Shown: piece by piece, positions 4,092 to 32,706 of the stretch
How the letters are laid out: each line of letters begins with the position of its first letter
Numbering within the stretch: position 1 is the stretch's first letter
Origin: an uncultured Flavobacteriales bacterium
Lineage (GTDB): Bacteria; Bacteroidota; Bacteroidia; Flavobacteriales_D; Sanyastnellaceae
Direction: 5' to 3'
Length of the DNA stretch: 32,706 bases
NCBI GenBank assembly: GCA_938085425.1
Contig: CALKGQ010000035.1
Coordinates: 1-32,706 of the forward strand
The notes under the pieces: generated by a model
Seen by the model: only the letters and a program-made list of their open reading frames with translations
The model's database searches: none
Told to the model about the DNA's origin: nothing
Program-made: the position numbers and the translations under genes

Positions 4092-5561
4092 TCACACCTC
4101 GGGCCGGATCTCTGGGGTCGGCGCTTCGGAAAGCGTTCTCAGGTTCCACCCAAGTCCCGCAACCAGCAAAGTCATGAGCGGGGACACCCAGTTGAAGATG
4201 CAATACGGCGCATAGGCCAAGGTCGCCACGCCAAGGATGCCACTTTGGGCAACACCACAGGTGTTCCACGGGATGAGGACCGACGTCACCGTGCCAGCAT
4301 CTTCCAACGTTCGGCTCAAGTTTTCGGGCGCAAGTCCTTGTTTTTGGTAGGCACTTCCCAGCATTTTGCCAGGCACAACGATGGCGATGTACTGGTCCGA
4401 GGCGAGGACATTGAATGCCAAGCAGGCTCCAACGGTGCGGCCAATCAATCCCAGTGCACTGTTGACGCCGCCTACAAGGGCTTGTGTCAACCGCGCAAGC
4501 ATGCCGGTGGCTTGCAACACGGCCCCAAACGTCATGGCACAAACGATCAGCCACACGGTGTTGAGCATGCCTGCCATGCCACTCGAGCTCAACAGTTTGT
4601 CCGCCAATTCGTGGCCTGTCACCACACTGACATCCAAGGCCATCGCCTGCATGGAAGCGATGTAAGCGGCTGCGGCGCCCCCCCATTCGGGGCCGGCGAC
4701 GGAAGCAACGACATCGGGTTGGAACACCACGGCAGTCAATGCGCCGAGGAGAACTCCGACAAAGAGGGCAGGGGCGGCGGGCACCTTTCGCGCAATCATG
4801 ACCAGCACCACAACGGGGGCGAGGAAAAGGCCCAGGTGGATGTTGAATGCTCCTGACACAGCCTCTGCAAATCCAGGCGCCAAGGTGGCATTGGCATCTG
4901 CGGCACCTCCAGTGAAGCCCACGGCCAGAAAGACCAAAAGGGCGACGGCAATGCTTGGGCCTGTGGTGTACAGCATGTAGCGGATGTGCGTGACCAAATC
5001 GGTGCCTGCCACGGCAGGTGCGAGGTTGGTGGTGTCGCTCAGCGGGGACATCTTGTCCCCGAAGTAGGCGCCACTGATGATGGCGCCGGCCACCCATCCT
5101 TCAGAGAGGCCCATGGCCTGTCCAATGCCAATCAGTGCAATGCCCACCGTGCCTACGGTGCCCCACGAACTGCCTGTGGCGAGAGAGAGCACGGCACAAA
5201 CAATGCAGGCTGCGAACAAAAAGATGCCTGGCTGCAACACCATCATGCCATAATGAATGAAGGCGGGGATGATGCCTGCGAGAAGCCAAGTTCCCGACAA
5301 AGCGCCGATGAGCAGCAGGATCAAGAGGGCCTCAGTGGCCGTGCCAATGCTGTGGGCGATGGCCTCGCGAATGGACTCCCAATTGGTGCCTCTGGCCATC
5401 CCCAATGCACCTGCACTCAATGCCGCAAGGAGCAACGCGATTTGGTTGGATCCGTAGGAGCTGTCTTCTCCAAAGAAGACGACATCTGCGCCAAGAAGGC
5501 AGACCAAAAGAACCACTGGTGCCAGGGCCACCAGAAGGGGCATGCTCGGCCGGGAGGTCAT
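4092..5561 (-). CDS. nhaC: NhaC-family Na+/H+ antiporter
   Basis: A 489-residue inner-membrane protein made almost entirely of hydrophobic segments (roughly 11-12 helices). Segments such as TGSSWGTVGTVGIALIGIGQ, the AGAIISGAYFGDKMSPLSDTTNL stretch and LASDQYIAIVVPGKM are characteristic of the NhaC / IT-superfamily antiporters, which exchange Na+ for H+ (some relatives exchange malate/lactate). The start at 5561 overlaps the yajC stop by 4 nt (ATGA), indicating translational coupling. Together with NqrA at the other end of the window it suggests a cell that runs a Na+ cycle. The exact substrate cannot be read from sequence, so the gene symbol is by family. Confidence 0.88.
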   Translation of the reverse strand: MTSRPSMPLLVALAPVVLLVCLLGADVVFFGEDSSYGSNQIALLLAALSAGALGMARGTNWESIREAIAHSIGTATEALLILLLIGALSGTWLLAGIIPAFIHYGMMVLQPGIFLFAACIVCAVLSLATGSSWGTVGTVGIALIGIGQAMGLSEGWVAGAIISGAYFGDKMSPLSDTTNLAPAVAGTDLVTHIRYMLYTTGPSIAVALLVFLAVGFTGGAADANATLAPGFAEAVSGAFNIHLGLFLAPVVVLVMIARKVPAAPALFVGVLLGALTAVVFQPDVVASVAGPEWGGAAAAYIASMQAMALDVSVVTGHELADKLLSSSGMAGMLNTVWLIVCAMTFGAVLQATGMLARLTQALVGGVNSALGLIGRTVGACLAFNVLASDQYIAIVVPGKMLGSAYQKQGLAPENLSRTLEDAGTVTSVLIPWNTCGVAQSGILGVATLAYAPYCIFNWVSPLMTLLVAGLGWNLRTLSEAPTPEIRPEV

Positions 5562-5881
5562 TTGGTCTTTGCTTCGAGCTCTTGCGTGTCTGCCGCGCCA
5601 TTGGGGGACAAAGAGGATTTGTCCAGACGTGCCTTGCCAGACTCCATGTCCACCACAACGGTTTTTTCACTGACGGAAACAACTTTGCCGTGCAACCCGC
5701 CAATGGTGACCACATGGTCCCCCTTTTTGACAGCTTCACGGTACTTCTGGGCTTCCTTTTGGCGCTTCATTTGGGGCCGAATCATGAACAAGTACATGAT
5801 GGCAAACATGCCCGACAACATGAGCAATGTGGACATGCTGCTGCCTCCGGCAGCGGCTTGGAGAAGAAGGTTGGAGATCAT
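5558..5881 (-). CDS. yajC: Sec translocon accessory protein YajC
   Basis: A 107-residue single-span inner-membrane protein. YajC associates with SecDF-SecYEG, although its precise role remains modest. A hydrophobic helix (about residues 17-34) is followed by the family hallmark MIRPQMKRQKE, and then by a small basic/beta domain with GDHVVTIGGLHGKV. The acidic, Lys-rich tail is typical. Its ATG (5881) sits only 4 nt after a perfect TAnnTTTG box, so it may be translated from a leaderless mRNA and probably begins the yajC-nhaC-uvrA transcription unit. The DUF1573 gene ends 33 nt upstream; the nusB-DUF1573-yajC order is one I recall as common in Bacteroidota. Confidence 0.96.
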   Translation of the reverse strand: MISNLLLQAAAGGSSMSTLLMLSGMFAIMYLFMIRPQMKRQKEAQKYREAVKKGDHVVTIGGLHGKVVSVSEKTVVVDMESGKARLDKSSLSPNGAADTQELEAKTK

Positions 5882-5885
5882 GGCT

Positions 5886-5918
5886 CAAATGTACCCATCG
5901 AGTGGGTTCCGGCGTCAA
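5886..5918 (-). promoter_or_regulatory. Bacteroidota-type promoter of yajC
   Basis: On the minus strand TACATTTG (5893 to 5886) matches the Bacteroidota -7 consensus TAnnTTTG exactly. A TTG at 5918-5916 lies 22 nt upstream, inside the 17-23 nt spacing reported for flavobacterial promoters. Only 4 nt (AGCC) separate the box from the yajC ATG, so the predicted transcription start falls on or next to the start codon. Confidence 0.75.
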
Positions 5919-6385: not shown

Positions 6386-7326
6386 TCGATCAATCCCCGT
6401 CCAACTTTTTTGATGCCTCCGCTTTCTTTCAATTGCGTGAACAACTGGTCCAAAATGCCATTGATGAATCCGTGGCTCTTGGGGGTGCTGTAGTACTTGC
6501 TCAATTCGATGTACTCGTTGAGTGTCACTTTCAAGGGGATGGAGTCGAAGGTTTGGGCTTCTGCCAAGGCCATCTTCATCAGGATGCGGTCGGTGGTGGC
6601 GATGCGCTCGAGTTCCCAATTTTGCGCCCCCTCCTTGATGTGCCCCTCACTGGCCTCACCGAGTGCAAGGGTCTGCGTGAAAAGACCTTCCATGAAAGCT
6701 TTGTCGTCGTCATCGTCCCTCCACAAAGGAAGAAGTTCGACATCCTCATCGCCTTCTTTGATGGTTTTGATGGTTTTGATGGCCATGCTCGCGGCCAAAT
6801 CGAGGTCGTCCACCCAGAAGATGCTTTCCTCTTCCAACATGTCTTGGAACAAGTCAAAGTTCACCATGTGTTTGCGGAACATCCTGACCAAGCTCTCCCG
6901 GTCCACTTGAAACCCACGATCGTCATTCGCCATGTACTCCTGGTACTCTTCATTGTCCAGCATCCCTTTGAAGATGGCGCGAAGCAGTTCTTGTCGATTG
7001 GCCCAGCCTACACCTGTGGACTCGCATGCTTTCTTCAGGTTCTTGCTGTTGGCCAAAACCCGAAGGGGTTTGTTGGTCACAAACTTCGTATTGGGGTTCA
7101 GGTCTTCCGGCGAAGGCAGCTGCTTTTTGTACCCCGCTTCGATGCGGTCAATGGCCAAGGCTTGCATCGACCCCACCATGTCGAGCAGCATCAGATACAG
7201 TTCCTGCATCTTGATTGTGCTGTGGTCCAATGCCTTTCGGGCCCGCACGACGTCGCGTTCCTCATCTTGGTAGTATCCAAACAAAACTTGCAGGATTTTG
7301 ATCCTGAGATGGCGGCGATTGAGCAT
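6382..7326 (-). CDS. nusB: Transcription antitermination protein NusB (long Bacteroidota form)
   Basis: NusB binds rRNA leader boxA RNA with NusE/S10 and supports antitermination of rRNA transcription. The ATG at 7326 gives MLNRRHLRIKILQVLFGYYQ, the usual NusB opening, and 314 residues. This is more than twice the E. coli length; the extended N-terminal half is normal for Bacteroidota. The classical NusB fold lies in the last 130 or so residues (ERIATTDRILMKMALAEAQTF, LNEYIELSKYYSTPKSHGFINGILD). The stop overlaps the DUF1573 start by 4 nt. A perfect TAnnTTTG box lies 16 nt upstream. A short in-frame tandem repeat (6757-6783) encodes an IKT/IKT/IKE run. Confidence 0.95.
   Translation of the reverse strand: MLNRRHLRIKILQVLFGYYQDEERDVVRARKALDHSTIKMQELYLMLLDMVGSMQALAIDRIEAGYKKQLPSPEDLNPNTKFVTNKPLRVLANSKNLKKACESTGVGWANRQELLRAIFKGMLDNEEYQEYMANDDRGFQVDRESLVRMFRKHMVNFDLFQDMLEEESIFWVDDLDLAASMAIKTIKTIKEGDEDVELLPLWRDDDDDKAFMEGLFTQTLALGEASEGHIKEGAQNWELERIATTDRILMKMALAEAQTFDSIPLKVTLNEYIELSKYYSTPKSHGFINGILDQLFTQLKESGGIKKVGRGLIE
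6757..6783 (-). repeat. Three 9-bp tandem units inside nusB
   Basis: Read on the plus strand, three successive copies of TTTGATGG(T/C) occupy 6757-6765, 6766-6774 and 6775-6783. They encode an Ile-Lys-Thr repeat on the minus strand in the linker between the N-terminal half and the NusB fold. Being in frame, gain or loss of one unit would preserve the reading frame. Confidence 0.8.
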
Positions 7327-7342: not shown

Positions 7343-7350
7343 CAAAAGTA
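7343..7350 (-). promoter_or_regulatory. -7 box of the nusB promoter
   Basis: TACTTTTG on the minus strand is a full match to TAnnTTTG and lies 16 nt before the nusB ATG, leaving a leader of roughly 10 nt. I see no TTG at the expected -33 distance, so the call rests on the -7 box and position only. Confidence 0.55.
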
Positions 7351-7429: not shown

Positions 7430-7437
7430 TAATTTTG
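7430..7437 (+). promoter_or_regulatory. -7 box of the DUF4249 gene
   Basis: TAATTTTG is a full TAnnTTTG match, with only 5 nt between it and the ATG at 7443. This predicts transcription starting at or beside the start codon. No TTG is visible 17-23 nt upstream. It shares the 116-nt divergent region 7327-7442 with the nusB promoter. Confidence 0.6.
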
Positions 7438-7442
7438 CACCC

Positions 7443-8402
7443 ATGAAATCACCACATCACCTTAATCTTGTCGCTTTTGTGCTCCTTTTGACGGGGGTGG
7501 TGGGATGCACCACATTGGTGGAAGTGGACCTCCCAGACATTCCGCCCCAGGGAGTGATGGAGGCAAGCTTGCGGTTGGACGAGGCCCCTTTGGTCTTGTT
7601 GACCACGACCCAGGGGTATTTCGAGGCCACGGATGCGTCCACGCTCCCTGAGCTTTTTGTGGGGAATGCAGAAGTGGTCATGACGGTGGACGGCCAAGAG
7701 GTGGAATTGCCTGCGTTGTGCTCAGGGGACTTGCCGCCAGAGGCATTGGCAGCTGCGGCCGATTTCTTGGGGGTCTCCGCGGAGGTGCTGACGGACTTTG
7801 ATTTGTGCGTCTACACAGGCCTTGCGGAACCTTCCACGTACGGACTGGAAGGAGTTGAATATGGTCTCCGGGCCACATGGAGTGAAGGGGGGCAATCCTT
7901 CGATTTGTCAGCCACCACCACCATGCCTTCTGTTCCTGCATTGGACAGCAGTTGGTTCGCCATTCCACCAACGTCCACCAACGACAGTTTGGGGCTCATC
8001 TGGACGGCCTTTACGGATCCTTTGGGCTTTGGTGATGCCTATCGGTGGTCTTCCAAAAGAGTGAACAAATCCGAGGAATTCCTCTACCCTTTGGGCAGCG
8101 TGTTTGACGATGTTTTCGTCGATGGCTTGTCCTTCCCATTCCAAAGTTTCAGGGTGTCTCAACCTGGGGAGGAAGAAGAAGTAGGGGAGGCGGGGTTTTG
8201 GAAGGTTGGAGACACCGTTGTCGTCCGCTTGGAGGCGATCGACCACGAGGTGTTCGAGGTGCTTCGGGATTTTGAGACAAGTGTGTCCAACCAAGGAAAT
8301 CCGTTTGCCTTGCCGTCTTCCGCGAGTTCCAACGTGGAGGGCGGACTCGGGTGGTTCGTGGCCTATGCAGGCGTCACCGACACCGTGGTTTGTGCCCCTT
8401 GA
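7443..8402 (+). CDS. DUF4249 family outer-membrane lipoprotein
   Basis: A 319-residue protein beginning MKSPHHLNL, with a hydrophobic core and the lipobox VVGC (Cys22). The sequence after the Cys (TTLVEVDLPD), the LLTTTQGYFEATDAS stretch leading to the AEVVMTVDGQEVELP strand, and the C-terminal SSNVEGGLGWFVAYAG motif fit DUF4249, a Bacteroidota-specific family. DUF4249 genes usually sit next to a TonB-dependent receptor and are suspected to act as receptor-associated surface lipoproteins; here there is no receptor neighbour, which is odd. I chose the ATG at 7443 because the upstream in-frame ATG (7380) would add a non-hydrophobic extension and would start before the -7 box. Function unknown. 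Confidence 0.85.
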   Translation: MKSPHHLNLVAFVLLLTGVVGCTTLVEVDLPDIPPQGVMEASLRLDEAPLVLLTTTQGYFEATDASTLPELFVGNAEVVMTVDGQEVELPALCSGDLPPEALAAAADFLGVSAEVLTDFDLCVYTGLAEPSTYGLEGVEYGLRATWSEGGQSFDLSATTTMPSVPALDSSWFAIPPTSTNDSLGLIWTAFTDPLGFGDAYRWSSKRVNKSEEFLYPLGSVFDDVFVDGLSFPFQSFRVSQPGEEEEVGEAGFWKVGDTVVVRLEAIDHEVFEVLRDFETSVSNQGNPFALPSSASSNVEGGLGWFVAYAGVTDTVVCAP

Positions 8403-12293: not shown

Positions 12294-13778
12294 TCAGGCT
12301 TGAGGCGTGCGGTGAAGAACTTCGAGGAAATACCCCCAAAACTTTTGAACGGAGCTGATCTGAACACATTCGTCGGGGCTGTGGGCACCGCGGATGTTGG
12401 GGCCAAATGACACCATGTCCATGTTGGGGTAGTTCGTTCCAAGGATGCCACATTCAAGTCCTGCATGACAGGCCAAAACACGTGGGTCTTCTCCAAAATG
12501 TTCTGTATACAGGGCGCGGCACATCGCAACGGCCTCGCTCGAGGGGTTGGGGGTCCATCCAGGATACGATCCACTTCGCTCCGTTTGGAGACCCGCCAAA
12601 GCGAAGGCAGCCTCAATGCCTCTGGCATGGTCGTCCTTTTCCGAGTCGACACTGCTTCGGTTCAGGCATTGGATTTCAACTTTCCCACCTTTGACATCCA
12701 CGCGTGCCAAGTTGTTGGAGGTTTGCACCAGGCCTTCAATGTCAGGGCTCATCCTGTGGATGCCCACTGGACAAGCTTGAAGCGCGAGAAGCAAGGCATA
12801 CTGGTCCTCTTCGCCCATGACGTGGCTCGGCAGGTCAACAGGATTCCACTCGACCACCAAATCGGGGTCTGTGGTGCCATGCTCTGCTCTCAAGCGTTCT
12901 GCGGTTTGGGCCAAGGCTTGTGCGAGCGGGTCCAGGTCACTTTTCGCGCAAACGACCACCGTTCTGGATTCTCGTGGGATGGCATTTCGAAGCCCGCCTC
13001 CTTCGATCTGGGCGACGCGCAGGTCCACGTGGTCCAGTGCTTCAAGCACGACGCGGTTGCCCAATTTGTTGGCGTTTGCCAATCCCTTGTGAATGTCCAT
13101 TCCACTGTGGCCACCGGATGCACCACGCACCACGATTTCAAGGGCCATGTTGCCTTCTTCCACGGTGGTCTCCTCCGTGTAGGTGCCTCGCGAAGTGAGG
13201 TCGACGCCTCCTGCGCATCCGATGCTGATTTCATCGTCGTCCTCGGTGTCCAGGTTGAGGAGGATGTCACCTGAGAGAAAGCCGCCTTTCAGGCCCAAAG
13301 CGCCGGTCATGCCCGTCTCCTCGTCGATGGTGAAAAGTGCTTCCAAAGCGGGGTGGGGCACGTCTTGGCTTTCGAGCACCGCCAAAATGCTGGCCACGCC
13401 TATGCCATTGTCTGCGCCGAGCGTGGTGCCGTCTGCGCGCACCCAATCGCCGTCCACCATCATCCGGATGCCCTCCGACATGAAGTCAAAATCGGTGGCT
13501 GCGTTTTTTTGGCACACCATGTCCACATGGCTTTGGAGGACCACTGTTTTTCTCGACTCCATTCCTGGAGTTGAATCCTTTTTAATCAAGACGTTGCCAA
13601 CCTCGTCCTGAAGTGATTGTAGACCCTTTTGTTTGGCCCACGTGTGCAGCCATTCAACCACCTTGCCCTCATGCTTTGAGGGCCGAGGAATGGCGTTCAA
13701 ATCGGCAAATCGGTTCCAGAGGTCAAGCGGCTCGAGTTGGCGAACCGGGTGGGTGGGGTGATCGGCGTGGTCCTTCAT
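12294..13778 (-). CDS. pepD: Aminoacyl-histidine dipeptidase (M20 family)
   Basis: PepD (peptidase D, carnosinase-type) is a cytoplasmic zinc dipeptidase of family M20. The 494 residues start at the ATG at 13778. Metal and catalytic residues are visible: SHVDMV (His84), ADNGIG (Asp123), DEETGMTG (Glu153-Glu154), the acidic NLDTEDDDE stretch, and the C-terminal HAGLECG. The lid-domain motif GASGGHSGMDIHKG is also present. It heads a four-gene minus-strand operon with surE, a small membrane protein and lpxB. A near-consensus -7 box sits 5 nt before its start codon. Confidence 0.95.
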   Translation of the reverse strand: MKDHADHPTHPVRQLEPLDLWNRFADLNAIPRPSKHEGKVVEWLHTWAKQKGLQSLQDEVGNVLIKKDSTPGMESRKTVVLQSHVDMVCQKNAATDFDFMSEGIRMMVDGDWVRADGTTLGADNGIGVASILAVLESQDVPHPALEALFTIDEETGMTGALGLKGGFLSGDILLNLDTEDDDEISIGCAGGVDLTSRGTYTEETTVEEGNMALEIVVRGASGGHSGMDIHKGLANANKLGNRVVLEALDHVDLRVAQIEGGGLRNAIPRESRTVVVCAKSDLDPLAQALAQTAERLRAEHGTTDPDLVVEWNPVDLPSHVMGEEDQYALLLALQACPVGIHRMSPDIEGLVQTSNNLARVDVKGGKVEIQCLNRSSVDSEKDDHARGIEAAFALAGLQTERSGSYPGWTPNPSSEAVAMCRALYTEHFGEDPRVLACHAGLECGILGTNYPNMDMVSFGPNIRGAHSPDECVQISSVQKFWGYFLEVLHRTPQA

Positions 13779-13783
13779 GGTTC

Positions 13784-13791
13784 GAAAGGTA
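13784..13791 (-). promoter_or_regulatory. Probable -7 box of the pepD operon
   Basis: TACCTTTC (one mismatch to TAnnTTTG, last base) lies 5 nt before the pepD ATG on the minus strand. No TTG is visible at -33. It lies in the 110-nt divergent region 13779-13888 shared with parE. Confidence 0.5.
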
Positions 13792-18496: not shown

Positions 18497-18504
18497 TACA
18501 TTTG
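18497..18504 (+). promoter_or_regulatory. -7 box of mgsA
   Basis: TACATTTG is a full TAnnTTTG match placed 4 nt (GGCC) before the mgsA ATG. The arrangement is nearly identical to that of yajC (TACATTTG, AGCC, ATG). It lies in the 43-nt gap after parC. No TTG at the -33 spacing is visible. Confidence 0.65.
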
Positions 18505-18508
18505 GGCC

Positions 18509-18888
18509 ATGAATTTGAAGCGCGTCGCACTGATTGCCCACGACGGGAAAAAAGATGATTTGGTGGACTTTGTCCAAAACCACCTGACGTGGTTTTCACA
18601 ACTGGAGTTGGTGGGCACAGGAACCACTGGGGGACGGATTGAGGAGTTGGGTTTGACGGTGGAGAGGCTCGCTTCTGGGCCACTTGGTGGAGATGCCCAA
18701 ATCGCTGCCCGGATCACAGAGGGACGGCTGGATGCCGTCATTTTCTTTCGCGACCCCATGGGCAAGCATCCTCATGAACCCGACGTGAACATGCTGCTTC
18801 GTCAATGCGATGTGCACAATGTGGCCTTGGCCACCAACCGTGCGACGGCGGAATGGCTGGTGGCTGCAGCCGGCAAGGCGCAGGTGTG

Positions 18889-18889
<1 letters not shown>
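18509..18889 (+). CDS. mgsA: Methylglyoxal synthase
   Basis: MgsA converts dihydroxyacetone phosphate to methylglyoxal and phosphate, a cytoplasmic overflow bypass of lower glycolysis. The start at 18509 gives 126 residues (MNLKRVALIAHDGKKDDLVDF), slightly shorter than the E. coli enzyme. Conserved motifs are AHDGKK at the N-terminus, TGTTGGRIEE (phosphate binding), ASGPLGGDAQIAARI with the catalytic Asp, IFFRDPM, and HPHEPDVNMLLR with the conserved His and Asp, then ATNRATAEWLV. It overlaps prmC by one base (TGATG) and likely begins an mgsA-prmC-ligA unit with its own promoter. Confidence 0.94.
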
Positions 18890-21829
<2,940 letters not shown>

Positions 21830-27184: not shown

Positions 27185-28792
27185 TCAATTGGCATCTTCT
27201 TGTGCCGTCTTGAATTCGCTTGTGAAATGGAAGGTGATTTCAGGGAAGTTTTGAATCTCCATTTGAAGCATGAATTCAGAAGGGGCGAGGTACACTTCCA
27301 GCCCGTCTTTGTCATGGACAATGTCCTGTGCTTTGATCCGCCGGAATTCGGCAAGCTTTTCTTCGTGGTCGGATTCAATCCAGCAAGCCTTGGAATAAGG
27401 CTTGGGTTGAAACTCACATTTGGCGCCGTACTCGTGTTCCAGGCGGTATTGAATGACTTCAAATTGAAGCTCTCCAACGGTGCCTACGATTTTGCGGTTG
27501 CCTGCTTCTCGAATGAACAGCTGGGCGACCCCCTCGTCGGTCAATTGCTGGATGCCTTTCTCCAGTTGCTTGCTCTTCATGGGGTCTTTGTTCACCAGTT
27601 CCTTGAAGATCTCCGGAGAAAAGCTCGGGATGCCTCTGAACTGCAATTCTTCCCCTTCGGTCAGCGTGTCTCCGATTTTGAAGTTTCCAGTGTCGTAGAG
27701 GCCCACGACGTCGCCGGGCCATGCCTCTTCCACCACGCTCTTTTCTTGGGCAAGGAAGGCCGCGGGGTTGGCGAACTTCAACTTTTTGGAGATGCGCGTG
27801 TGCTGGTAAAACGTGTTGCGCTGAAAGCTGCCGGAACACACCCTCAAAAAGGCGATGCGGTCCCTGTGCTTGGGGTCGATGTTCGCGTGGATTTTGAAGA
27901 TGAAGCCGGTGAATTTGGATTCATCGGGTGCCACCATCCGTGAAGAGGTTTCGCGTGGCTTGGGGTTGGGGGCGATGTCCACAAAAGTGTCCAGCATTTC
28001 TTGGACACCAAAGTTGTTGACCGCACTGCCAAAGAACACGGGAGCCAGCTTTCCCTCGAGGTAGGGCTGTGGATCCCACGCGTCATAGACGCCTTCGATC
28101 AATTCGACATCTTCCCTCAGCGTGTCGGCATGCTCGCCCACCAAACCGTCCAAATCCTCGTCGTCCAGGGAATCGATGGCCACCACTTCTTTGGCCACCT
28201 TCGTCTTGTCCGCCTGAAAGAGGCGAAGGCTCTTGTTGTAGAGGTTGTAAACCCCTTGGAAGGTGTGTCCCTGTGAAATGGGCCAGGAGAGGGGACGCAC
28301 TTGAATGTTGAGCTTGGCTTCGACTTCGTCAAGCAAGTCGGTGGGATCCCGTCCTTCAAGGTCCATTTTGTTGATGAACACGATCACTGGGGTGTTCCTC
28401 ATCCGACAGACTTCCATCAATCGCTCGGTTTGGGGCTCCACTCCTTTGACACAATCAATGACCAAGATGACGCTGTCCACCGCCGTCAGGGTGCGGTAGG
28501 TGTCTTCCGCAAAATCCCTGTGTCCAGGGGTGTCCAACAGATTGATCAAGATGTCACGGTAATGGAAGGCCATCACCGAGGTGGCCACAGAGATGCCCCT
28601 CTGCCGCTCGATTTCCATGAAGTCAGAGGCTGCCGACTTCGTGATTTTGTTGTTCTTCACCGCACCCGCAGTCTGGATGGCTCCGCCAAACAGCAAAAAT
28701 TTCTCTGTCAACGTGGTTTTGCCAGCATCTGGGTGAGAGATGATGGCGAAGGTGCGTCGACGGTCGATTTGGTCTTGGATGTGGGCGCTCAT
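27185..28792 (-). CDS. prfC: Peptide chain release factor 3
   Basis: RF3 is the GTPase that recycles RF1/RF2 from the ribosome after peptide release. The ATG at 28792 gives 535 residues ([17 protein letters not shown]). GTPase motifs in order are G1 [13 protein letters not shown] (about residues 19-31), the switch region [12 protein letters not shown]3 [12 protein letters not shown] and G4 [11 protein letters not shown]. The RF3-type domain II and III sequences follow ([37 protein letters not shown]). Its promoter overlaps the stop codon of the upstream glycosyltransferase gene, and the ATG lies only 6 nt after the -7 box. A gene series of envelope proteins follows it, 22 nt downstream. Confidence 0.97.
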
Positions 28793-28798
28793 GGGGGA

Positions 28799-28826
28799 CA
28801 AAATTACGCCTTCTCTCCGGAGCCAA
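28799..28826 (-). promoter_or_regulatory. Promoter of prfC, overlapping the upstream stop codon
   Basis: On the minus strand TTG (28826-28824), a 17-nt spacer and TAATTTTG (28806-28799) match the Bacteroidota TTG / TAnnTTTG promoter. The first three bases of the -7 box are also the TAA stop of the glycosyltransferase gene. Six bases (TCCCCC) separate the box from the prfC ATG, again predicting a leaderless or nearly leaderless mRNA. Confidence 0.72.
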
Positions 28827-30690: not shown

Positions 30691-31986
30691 TCAAGGGTTG
30701 CTTTCCCATTGTGCGAAGCCGACCACCCGGTCGTAGCCGTCCCAATCGGCGTAATGCACAAAGAGTGAATAGAGGTTGTCGGTTCGGTTGTGGCTCCCTT
30801 CAAGATCAAACAAGGTGCCCGGGTCGCCAGCCGCGTCTTTGGGGTCTTTCACCACATAGTGATAGTTGTAATACCCTTGTTTCAATTTGTGTTGCAACGT
30901 GTAGACGCCGCGGCCGGCATTGTATTGCATGCGGAAGTGAGGCAAGCATTGGTTTTGGGTGAAGGCCCCTACGATGTAAATGTCACGACCCACCAACGGA
31001 TGCCGGGTGTCAAGGCTCCAATGGACCCAAACGTAGTCGCTGCCTGTGTAAGGTTCCAGCCGGTCGTTGTGGGTGACCATGGCCCCGTGAATGTCATCCC
31101 CTCCGGCAAAGGTGTCGTAGGTCCTCCGCACGTCCGTGTCCAGATAGAAATGCCAATGGTCGTCGCTCTCTTGAAGGCTCGCCACGCCGAGGGCCAAAAA
31201 CTCCAACCCCTTCAAGTCGGCAAATCGATAGGTGTTGCCCCCTTCGAAGACATGCCCTGTGCGACGGTAGTCAATTTCATTGCCTTTCACAAAGCGGGGG
31301 TCTTTGCCAGAAATGGCGCGGTCCCATCGCCAGTTGGGCACGACAGTGGCCTCCAGTCGGTCGTAAGGGTCAGAGAGGTTGTACCCTTCTTCAAATACTG
31401 AGAAGTGCACCTCCTGGTGGGACCTTCTCAAGGCAATGTCGGAAGGTTCTCCTGCTTGGGCTTCGACGCGACACAAATCTTCAAACACCACAAACCGTCG
31501 CACTGCGACCGGGGTTTCAGGAGCATCGGGGTCCAGCACTTGGAGCAAATAGTTCCCGCTCAATGTCCAGGACAGATCGTCATTGGGCAGGCGCACGGAG
31601 TGGTGGGTGAAGTCCACCTTGGTGCCAAAGCTTGCCTCGTCGTCCTCCATTGGCGTGGTGTAGAAGCCTTGAAGGTATTCGCTCGGATGCAGGTCCGATG
31701 GCGTCCAATGCCGGTCGCAATGCACAATGGTGATTTCCCATGGAGTGTAATCTCCTGACAGGTCGTCGAACCGAATCTCCAACAGCCCCAATTCCTGCGA
31801 CAAGGGAACGACAGGGGGAGAAAGGGGTTGCCCTGTGGGGTGGAAGAGCAAGGTTTCAATCCGAGGCCCATCTGCTGGCAACGACAGAAACTGCGCACTT
31901 GAAGAAGGCGAATAGAGACAGGCCAGGAACATCCCGGTCCAAAAGCCGCACCATGCAGTGCCCGATCCACACCATCTGAAAGTCAT
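30691..31986 (-). CDS. Type IX secretion system plug protein (DUF5103)
   Basis: A 431-residue exported protein with a signal peptide (cleavage near SSSAQ, about residue 32). It matches the DUF5103 family, now described as the plug protein that gates the SprA (T9SS) translocon from the periplasmic side. Recognisable segments are LGLLEIRFDDLSGDYTPWEITIVHCDRHWTPSDL, SEYLQGFYTT, FTHHSVRLPNDDLSWTLSGNYLL, IDYRRTGHVFEGGNTYRFADLKG, and the C-terminal NYHYVVKD...LEGSHNRTDNLYSLFVHY. It fits the lectin-CHU_C cargo protein in the same window. It diverges from nqrA; I recall a DUF5103-nqrA neighbourhood in other Flavobacteriales. A near-consensus -7 box sits 4 nt before the ATG. Confidence 0.87.
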   Translation of the reverse strand: MTFRWCGSGTAWCGFWTGMFLACLYSPSSSAQFLSLPADGPRIETLLFHPTGQPLSPPVVPLSQELGLLEIRFDDLSGDYTPWEITIVHCDRHWTPSDLHPSEYLQGFYTTPMEDDEASFGTKVDFTHHSVRLPNDDLSWTLSGNYLLQVLDPDAPETPVAVRRFVVFEDLCRVEAQAGEPSDIALRRSHQEVHFSVFEEGYNLSDPYDRLEATVVPNWRWDRAISGKDPRFVKGNEIDYRRTGHVFEGGNTYRFADLKGLEFLALGVASLQESDDHWHFYLDTDVRRTYDTFAGGDDIHGAMVTHNDRLEPYTGSDYVWVHWSLDTRHPLVGRDIYIVGAFTQNQCLPHFRMQYNAGRGVYTLQHKLKQGYYNYHYVVKDPKDAAGDPGTLFDLEGSHNRTDNLYSLFVHYADWDGYDRVVGFAQWESNP

Positions 31987-31990
31987 GCCC

Positions 31991-31998
31991 CAAAGTTC
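31991..31998 (-). promoter_or_regulatory. Probable -7 box of the DUF5103 operon
   Basis: GAACTTTG (first base differs from TAnnTTTG) lies 4 nt (GGGC) before the ATG at 31986 on the minus strand. A TTTG at 32018-32015 lies 16 nt upstream, one base short of the reported spacer range. Confidence 0.5.
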
Positions 31999-32081: not shown

Positions 32082-32089
32082 TACCTTTG
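32082..32089 (+). promoter_or_regulatory. -7 box of nqrA
   Basis: TACCTTTG is a full TAnnTTTG match 21 nt before the nqrA ATG at 32111, leaving a short leader of roughly 15 nt. TTG trimers upstream are at spacings of 12 and 25, outside the usual range. Confidence 0.5.
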
Positions 32090-32110: not shown

Positions 32111-32706
32111 ATGTCCAAGACCTTGCGAATCAAAAAAGGGGTAGACATCCGGTTGACCGGAACGCCCTCGACCGCGTGCGCAGATGCGCCGCAACCCTCC
32201 GTGGTGGCTGTACAGCCCACCGACTGCCCAGGCCTCATCCCCAAGTTGGTGGTGAAGGAAGGGGCGAGCGTCCAAGCCGGCGATGCACTTTTTCACGACA
32301 AAACTTGCCCTACGGTGATGTTTGCAAGCCCTGTTTCAGGGACGGTGAAAGAAGTGGTTCGCGGCGCCAAAAGGCGCATTCTGGCGGTGGTGGTGGAAGC
32401 CGATGGTGCGAACCAATCGCGTGATTTTGGCCCTTGGAAGGGCGGAGACCGCGAGGCCCTTTTGGCCCACTTGACCGCGTCAGGCGCTTTCGCTTTTTTC
32501 CGCCAGCGCCCGTTTGACGTGCTCGCCAACCCGTCCGACACCCCTCGTGCCATCTATGTGAGCGGCTTCGATTCGTCGCCTTTGGCGGCGGACCCAGCCG
32601 TGGTCGTGGATGGAAGGTTGGAAGATTTGCAGCAGGGCATCGATGCCTTGGCCATGTTGGCAGGGGACGGTGGTGTCCATCTGGGCATCCGTCCAGACCA
32701 AAAAGA
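32111..32706 (+). CDS. nqrA: Na+-translocating NADH:quinone reductase subunit A, 3' end cut by window edge
   Basis: NqrA is the peripheral, quinone-associated subunit of the Na+-pumping respiratory NADH dehydrogenase (NQR). The frame opens at the ATG at 32111 and stays open to the window end (198 codons of about 450 expected). It begins MSKTLRIKKGVDIRLTG, as NqrA does. The biotinyl-like fold follows (KLVVKEGASVQAGDALFHDKT, FASPVSGTVKEVVRGAKRRIL). The strongly conserved FRQRPFDVLANPSDTPRAIYVSGFDSSPLAAD segment is present. The remaining nqr genes should lie to the right. Na+-NQR and the NhaC antiporter together suggest a marine-type sodium economy. Confidence 0.96.
   Translation, partial: MSKTLRIKKGVDIRLTGTPSTACADAPQPSVVAVQPTDCPGLIPKLVVKEGASVQAGDALFHDKTCPTVMFASPVSGTVKEVVRGAKRRILAVVVEADGANQSRDFGPWKGGDREALLAHLTASGAFAFFRQRPFDVLANPSDTPRAIYVSGFDSSPLAADPAVVVDGRLEDLQQGIDALAMLAGDGGVHLGIRPDQK

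Follow-up and report, generated by a model that had tools for sequence, protein, structure and literature searches.

Upstream of many genes in the genome of an uncultured Flavobacteriales bacterium, the -7 box of the housekeeping promoter ends only a few nucleotides before the ATG. We propose, with a probability of about 0.75 on the sequence evidence, that these boxes are ordinary sigma-ABfr promoters fused to the start codon, that the resulting mRNAs are leaderless, and that this is a common mode of gene start in the lineage. RNA polymerase would start at the A of the ATG where the gap is 4, or 1-2 bases before it where the gap is 5-6, and the leaderless mRNA would be translated through recognition of its 5'-terminal AUG. 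The arrangement appears to be common in this genus, and less uniform among the members of its family and of one related genus in the order. The box, its spacing with a sharp edge, its restriction to ATG, its recurrence in close relatives and its distribution among lineages are all observed directly in the DNA.

The window is the whole stretch of 32,706 nucleotides that was analysed, contig 35 of a genome of 2.07 Mb (56 contigs, 97.8% complete), hereafter G000. A sample of 830 kb of this genome, made of the window and 40 stretches of its own genome, has a G+C content of 56%, and 628 genes with their start codons were called in G000 by a home-made coding-potential script. Judged by the gyrA/parC-type protein, the nearest named relatives are unclassified Flavobacteriales/Bacteroidetes MAGs with a best-segment identity of 82-93%, for example UBA7382, ERR315863_bin.45, casp15-mb.151 and casp150-mb.187. 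G505 is a same-genus genome and L numbers denote loci of relatives. The gap is the number of nucleotides between the end of the -7 box and the ATG.

The distance histogram at genome scale, which the earlier note had asked for as a check, peaks sharply at 4-6 nt. In the 830 kb, each TAHHTTTG of either strand was paired with all ATGs opening at least 80 codons. Gaps 0-3 hold 2 pairs in total, gap 4 holds 28, gap 5 holds 11 and gap 6 holds 5; counts of 4, 6 and 2 at gaps 7, 8 and 9 are followed by a low hump at about 16-24, over a background of 1.2 per gap, and the reversed motif used as a control is flat across gaps. For the whole genome without the ORF filter, the counts are 8 at gaps 2-3, 89 at gaps 4-5, 13 at gaps 10-11 and 83 over the ten gaps 18-27, to be compared with 5, 1, 2 and 24 for the reversed pattern. 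The octamer has the form of the -7 element of the sigma-ABfr promoter, TAnnTTTG (TAHHTTTG), and the hard edge at 4 nt fits a promoter whose box and start are 4-5 nt apart, because a smaller gap would remove the A of the AUG. From this spacing we infer that transcription would start at the ATG, and likewise the mode of translation. No clear TTG enrichment pointing to a -33 element (TTTG/TTG) was found at spacers of 12-29 upstream of 39 fused boxes, the maximum being a count of 4 at 16; this missing signal is not decisive, since the element is likewise weak in F. johnsoniae (PMC6847099). The fused boxes resemble the sigma-ABfr promoters of F. johnsoniae in the -7 octamer, in the 4-5 nt to the (here presumed) transcription start and in the lack of an evident -33 element.

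Within the window, the raw number of boxes is unremarkable and their position is striking; at the scale of the genome this position is far beyond the controls. Exact matches to TANNTTTG number 8 in the window for 4.25 expected, and 6 of 100 shuffles reach 8. Four of the eight are fused to an ATG (gaps 4, 5, 4 and 6), two lie at a leadered distance and two are intra-coding (20005 and 31028). The four fused exact boxes, at yajC, the DUF4249 gene, mgsA and prfC, were located by pattern and ORF check just as the earlier note had described them, and the three one-mismatch boxes that it listed, at pepD, ligA and the DUF5103 gene, were all found as well.

The yajC box (TACATTTG, 5886-5893, minus strand) stands at gap 4 to the ATG at 5881 of a preprotein translocase subunit gene (5558-5881, minus strand; Pfam PF02699, E 1.6e-26) that is predicted to be leaderless and starts 33 nt past a same-strand upstream gene; in the relative L063 the counterpart is TACCTTTC, with one mismatch and unchanged spacing. 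The DUF4249 gene (7443-8402, plus strand; PF14054, E 3.8e-17), a divergent head also predicted to be leaderless, has its box (TAATTTTG, 7430-7437, plus strand) at gap 5 to the ATG at 7443, and no start codon is kept at the aligned place in L061, the sole relative aligned. For mgsA, the MGS-like domain gene (18509-18889, plus strand; PF02142, E 3.4e-12), a leaderless mRNA is again predicted from a box (TACATTTG, 18497-18504, plus strand) at gap 4 to the ATG at 18509, and a gyrA/parC-type gene on the same strand ends 43 nt before this ATG. The gap-4 box of mgsA is present in the six closest relatives (exact in L062-L065, one mismatch in L061, two in L082), and at gaps 4-6 it is absent, with at least 3 mismatches, in 11 relatives of 59-78% identity, 5 of which have an aligned ATG. 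The limitation of this fused promoter to the closest relatives suggests that it was gained recently, behind the gyrA/parC-type gene. The weakest of the four exact cases is prfC, encoding release factor 3 (27185-28792, minus strand; PF16658, E 3.5e-46), whose box (TAATTTTG, 28799-28806, minus strand) lies at gap 6 to the ATG at 28792. Its TAA (28804-28806) also terminates the upstream ORF, which ends 11 nt from the ATG, and in L062-L064 the counterpart TAAGTTTG stands 8 nt from the ATG.

Among the one-mismatch boxes, that of pepD (TACCTTTC, 13784-13791, minus strand) is at gap 5 to the ATG at 13778 of a divergent head, a beta-Ala-His dipeptidase gene (TIGR01893), and L063 keeps both box and gap. 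The ligA box (TATCTTTA, 19793-19800, plus strand; gap 4 to the ATG at 19805) sits in the tail of an upstream prmC-like ORF, ligA starting 1 nt after this same-strand gene; LigA was assigned by NCBIfam, and its box in L082 has two mismatches. The box of the DUF5103/T9SS plug gene (PF17116) is GAACTTTG (31991-31998, minus strand), at gap 4 to the ATG at 31986, and this gene is probably a divergent head because an opposite-strand ORF from the ATG at 32111 extends towards the window edge. The predicted gene starting at 32111 is itself preceded, at gap 21, by one of the two leadered counterparts (TACCTTTG, 32082-32089, plus strand); the other belongs to nusB (TACTTTTG, 7343-7350, minus strand), at gap 16 to the ATG at 7326. 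The reading of the window genes as operon heads, which the earlier note had implied, thus holds for the DUF4249 gene, pepD and probably the DUF5103 gene, and not for yajC, mgsA, prfC and ligA, which trail a same-strand gene at the 33, 43, 11 and 1 nt given above.

Across G000, divergent heads were compared with close-spaced genes, defined as those at most 20 nt from the gene ahead of them on the same strand. Of 182 divergent heads, 24 have an exact box at gaps 4-6, and of 181 close-spaced genes 6 have one; control gaps give 0-4%. With a fixed box model corrected for composition, the share among the 168 divergent heads with a usable ATG is estimated at 39% (bootstrap 30-48%; shuffled mean 0.3%); other gap triples give at most 5%. 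The same model gives 20-21% for same-strand genes at larger distance and 15% for close-spaced genes, where 5 of the 23 matches fall in 4-nt overlaps. A free motif search returned TAnCTTnG in the divergent heads, with a gap-4 weight of 0.55, and a weak AT-containing motif resembling AACCTTGA in the close-spaced genes, with gap 4 again on top at a weight of 0.22; only the fixed-motif share is quoted here, since the mixing share of the free search is untrustworthy (0.45-1.0 in controls). The contrast between heads and internal genes is therefore real and not absolute. The claim that heads carry the box and internal genes lack it stands in the 39% against 15%, and in the 4 mismatches found at the likely ATGs of surE (12287), lpxB (11168) and uvrA (4061), and fails in that close-spaced genes still reach 15%; in the same way, the peak anticipated for heads only is stronger in heads and persists in close-spaced genes. 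With yajC, mgsA, prfC and ligA all trailing a same-strand gene in the window, some cases must be due to promoters inside operons, to operon borders drawn wrongly or to a weaker translation signal.

Two side observations concern the boxes themselves. Among the close-spaced genes of G000, the five boxes of the 4-nt overlaps have at most one mismatch and lie inside the coding sequence of the preceding gene. In the stretches of G435 (L176-L185), the free motif search gives A and G about equally at the last box position, where G dominates in G000 and G505.

The start codon itself was also considered. In the two same-genus genomes, the gap-4 starts are 46 ATG, 2 GTG and no TTG, the GTG and TTG counts being at or below their backgrounds of 2.1 and 3.3 per gap, and GTG and TTG make up 102 of the 628 called starts in G000. 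In G435, G496 and G448 together, the corresponding counts are 23 ATG, 3 GTG and 1 TTG (backgrounds 1.9, 1.1 and 3.2). Leaderless mRNAs are expected to depend on a terminal AUG, whereas a general AT-rich ribosome-binding region would not show such selectivity for the start codon. Shine-Dalgarno-like words are not enriched upstream of the starts (27 of 628, or 4.3%, for 8.0% in a control window), an absence that is unspecific because the phylum generally lacks them. The anti-Shine-Dalgarno pattern had no match in G000, and what it matched in other genomes are candidate 16S sequences at most. Loss of bS21 was considered as an explanation and rejected, as the protein was found in all six genomes searched. 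Positions -13 to -11 of the close-spaced genes are A-rich, and a C precedes the ATG in 58-66% of cases in all gene classes. The latter was rejected as an initiation context, since internal Met codons are alike (C 58%, T 1%) and the preference thus reflects a genome-wide avoidance of T|A. Over G000 and G505 (L001-L060), an ATG, whether start or internal, is preceded by T in 1-8% and by C in 58-68% of cases; the avoidance of T|A across codon borders is absent in the AT-rich genome G021 of the same class (T 28-46%).

Conservation was followed in 117 genes whose start codon had an aligned counterpart in a locus of the same genus or of a close relative. In the tblastn set that supplied the mgsA and prfC comparisons, 26 of 50 query genes gave no row. 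Among the 117, a box with at most one mismatch stands at gaps 4-6 in 18 G000 genes (one of them a TTG start), and the relative also has it in 12 of these 18 and in 4 of the other 99. In three control gap sets pooled, a box is present in 19 of 351 and kept in the relative in 8 of the 19. Boxes are thus found in 15% at gaps 4-6 and in 5% at control gaps, and conserved pairs in 12 of 117 and 8 of 351, respectively, and the rate of conservation given a box is just moderately above that at control gaps. Individual cases include three genes that we take, from their N-termini, to be lpdA-like, mnmA and trmD: the first retains box and gap 4 in L050, the second retains gap 4 both in L151, with an exact box, and in L059, with one mismatch, and the third has gap 5 in G000, while in L177 the box is exact and the gap is 4.

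Several explanations compete with fused promoters. The octamer at -12 to -5 could be a translation signal, an AT-rich ribosome-binding region of the kind typical of Bacteroidota, with leadered transcripts, in line with gene-start work whose usual models give the FCB group AT-rich non-Shine-Dalgarno sites (PMC9581028). The weaker signal in 15% of close-spaced genes, their A-rich -13 to -11 positions and their faint gap-4 motif would all suit such a signal, which is nevertheless unlikely: the boxes match the promoter consensus in full, down to its final G, at an exact spacing with a hard edge, they are several times rarer in close-spaced genes than in divergent heads, they are limited to ATG starts, and the same box is also found at leadered distances upstream of genes.

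A slightly smaller chance is given to promoters with a scattered start, which would leave leaders of 1-8 nt or have some genes translated from a downstream codon. Scatter in the start of RNA polymerase is common, gaps 5-9 are also occupied in the histogram (11, 5, 4, 6 and 2) and the relatives of prfC are at gap 8; yet the mode is gap 4 and not 6-9, and the ATGs of orthologues align at the same place. That chance placed an AT-rich octamer ahead of a few ATGs would suit the ordinary box count of the window and is very improbable given the position-specific excess genome-wide and in close relatives, with flat reversed-motif controls. Start-codon-fused promoters thus remain the preferred reading. 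For the earlier prediction that mRNAs begin at or next to the ATG, widely in this lineage, the histogram peak, the restriction to ATG, the conservation in close relatives and the lineage comparison all speak in favor, and the finding that internal genes are not simply without the box speaks against its full form.

The lineage distribution was examined in 395 genomes across the phylum. By inspection, the ratio of fused to reversed pattern is highest in the genome of the window (123 to 13), a ratio that favors genomes of low background. Counts at gaps 4-5 and 10-11 were compared in 80 genomes chosen by hand, some for high ratios beforehand; they include 17 of the 31 listed genomes of f1, the window's own family, G463 not being among them. 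All 17 f1 genomes have a ratio of at least 2, with a median of 3.8 against 1.4 for the 63 others. Outside f1, high ratios occur in f2 (G435, G459, G041, G444), f25, f9, f7 (one of three), f63, f58, f62 and f13. Those beyond the window's order include G136, G101, G027 and G381 (f25), G072 (f9) and G178 (f7), which are possibly separate origins of fused promoters. The ratio correlates with control density (Spearman -0.56), which the excess per Mb does not (-0.14, p 0.22), and since the ratio is inflated at low background, the composition-corrected model share was used instead. Among divergent heads, this share is 38% of 80 in G505, 32% of 25 in G496, 32% of 42 in G435 (another family, 42% G+C) and 20% of 32 in G448, yet with 18% at gaps 16-18 in the last; it is 4% of 30 in G021 and 10% of 119 in the pooled distant named loci. 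The histograms, unlike the share model, also took in the named pools of 60-79% identity and the genomes G472 and G441, and the loci of G045 (L175), G381 (L186) and G390 (L187-L188), being too few, were omitted from the histograms and kept in the tblastn set.

Fused boxes number 67-72 for 3-10 controls in the four closest named genomes and 62-140 for 15-34 controls in six genomes of intermediate identity (L066, L067, L068, L070, L074 and L076). Named loci of 66-79% identity, pooled over 374 kb, show no clear peak (2, 0 and 2 at gaps 4, 5 and 6), and G463, of family f1, has no excess over the reversed pattern (197 versus 208). The fused-box signal in family f1 is therefore not uniform, and it is weak in relatives of intermediate distance. 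Labilibaculum euxinus has 132 fused for 112 reversed and Portibacter marinus 173 for 72, so that an excess over the reversed pattern, taken alone, is unspecific.

The promoter and the mRNA type are already known; what is unusual is their frequency and the phylum. The earlier description of Bacteroidota as mostly leadered is in accord with three studies. Of the transcripts predicted for F. johnsoniae that have a probable promoter, 87% carry leaders above 10 nt, which leaves about 13% with leaders of at most 10 nt (PMC6847099), whereas the commonest box-to-ATG distance here is 4 nt; about 3.7% of 5' UTRs are below 10 nt in B. thetaiotaomicron (PMC7366714), and 5.5% of mRNAs are leaderless in F. 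psychrophilum (PMC9723704). The promoter and the predicted outcome are shared with the leaderless or short-leader mRNAs of the last two species, in which they form a minor class, while about two fifths of divergent heads are predicted by the model here, the measured 3.7% to about 13% having mapped-start mRNAs as another denominator. A 2011 survey reports more than 20% leaderless genes in Actinobacteria and Deinococcus-Thermus and places Bacteroidetes among the clades rich in "atypical" genes (PMC3160421). The present case is like those two phyla in that a housekeeping box precedes the start codon by a fixed, short distance in a large share of genes, and unlike them (there TANNNT, roughly 12 bp upstream of the start codon) in phylum and sigma consensus. 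Leaderless mRNA in some Flavobacteriia without the CCUCC anti-Shine-Dalgarno is also mentioned by PMC10783764, whose results agree with it. A TAnnTTTG-fused, leaderless-rich Bacteroidota lineage is not reported among the literature matches listed, at the level of titles and abstract openings and with subscription journals largely outside.

More tentatively, and with the odds somewhat against it, a clade of Bacteroidota may have made leaderless initiation its main mode of operon start with the housekeeping promoter, similar shifts having occurred separately in f25, f9, part of f7 and a genus of f2, which are low-background and probably GC-richer lineages. Without Shine-Dalgarno pairing in the phylum, leaders would be dispensable, and in such genomes unstructured AT-rich leaders would be costly, so that promoters could shift up to the ATG. 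A lineage with about 40% of its heads leaderless, set against the 3.7-5.5% of leaderless mRNAs or leaders below 10 nt in two mapped model Bacteroidota, would alter gene-start prediction and promoter annotation for these bacteria, and related genomes with and without the shift would provide a natural comparison for why leaders stay or go in the absence of Shine-Dalgarno pairing.
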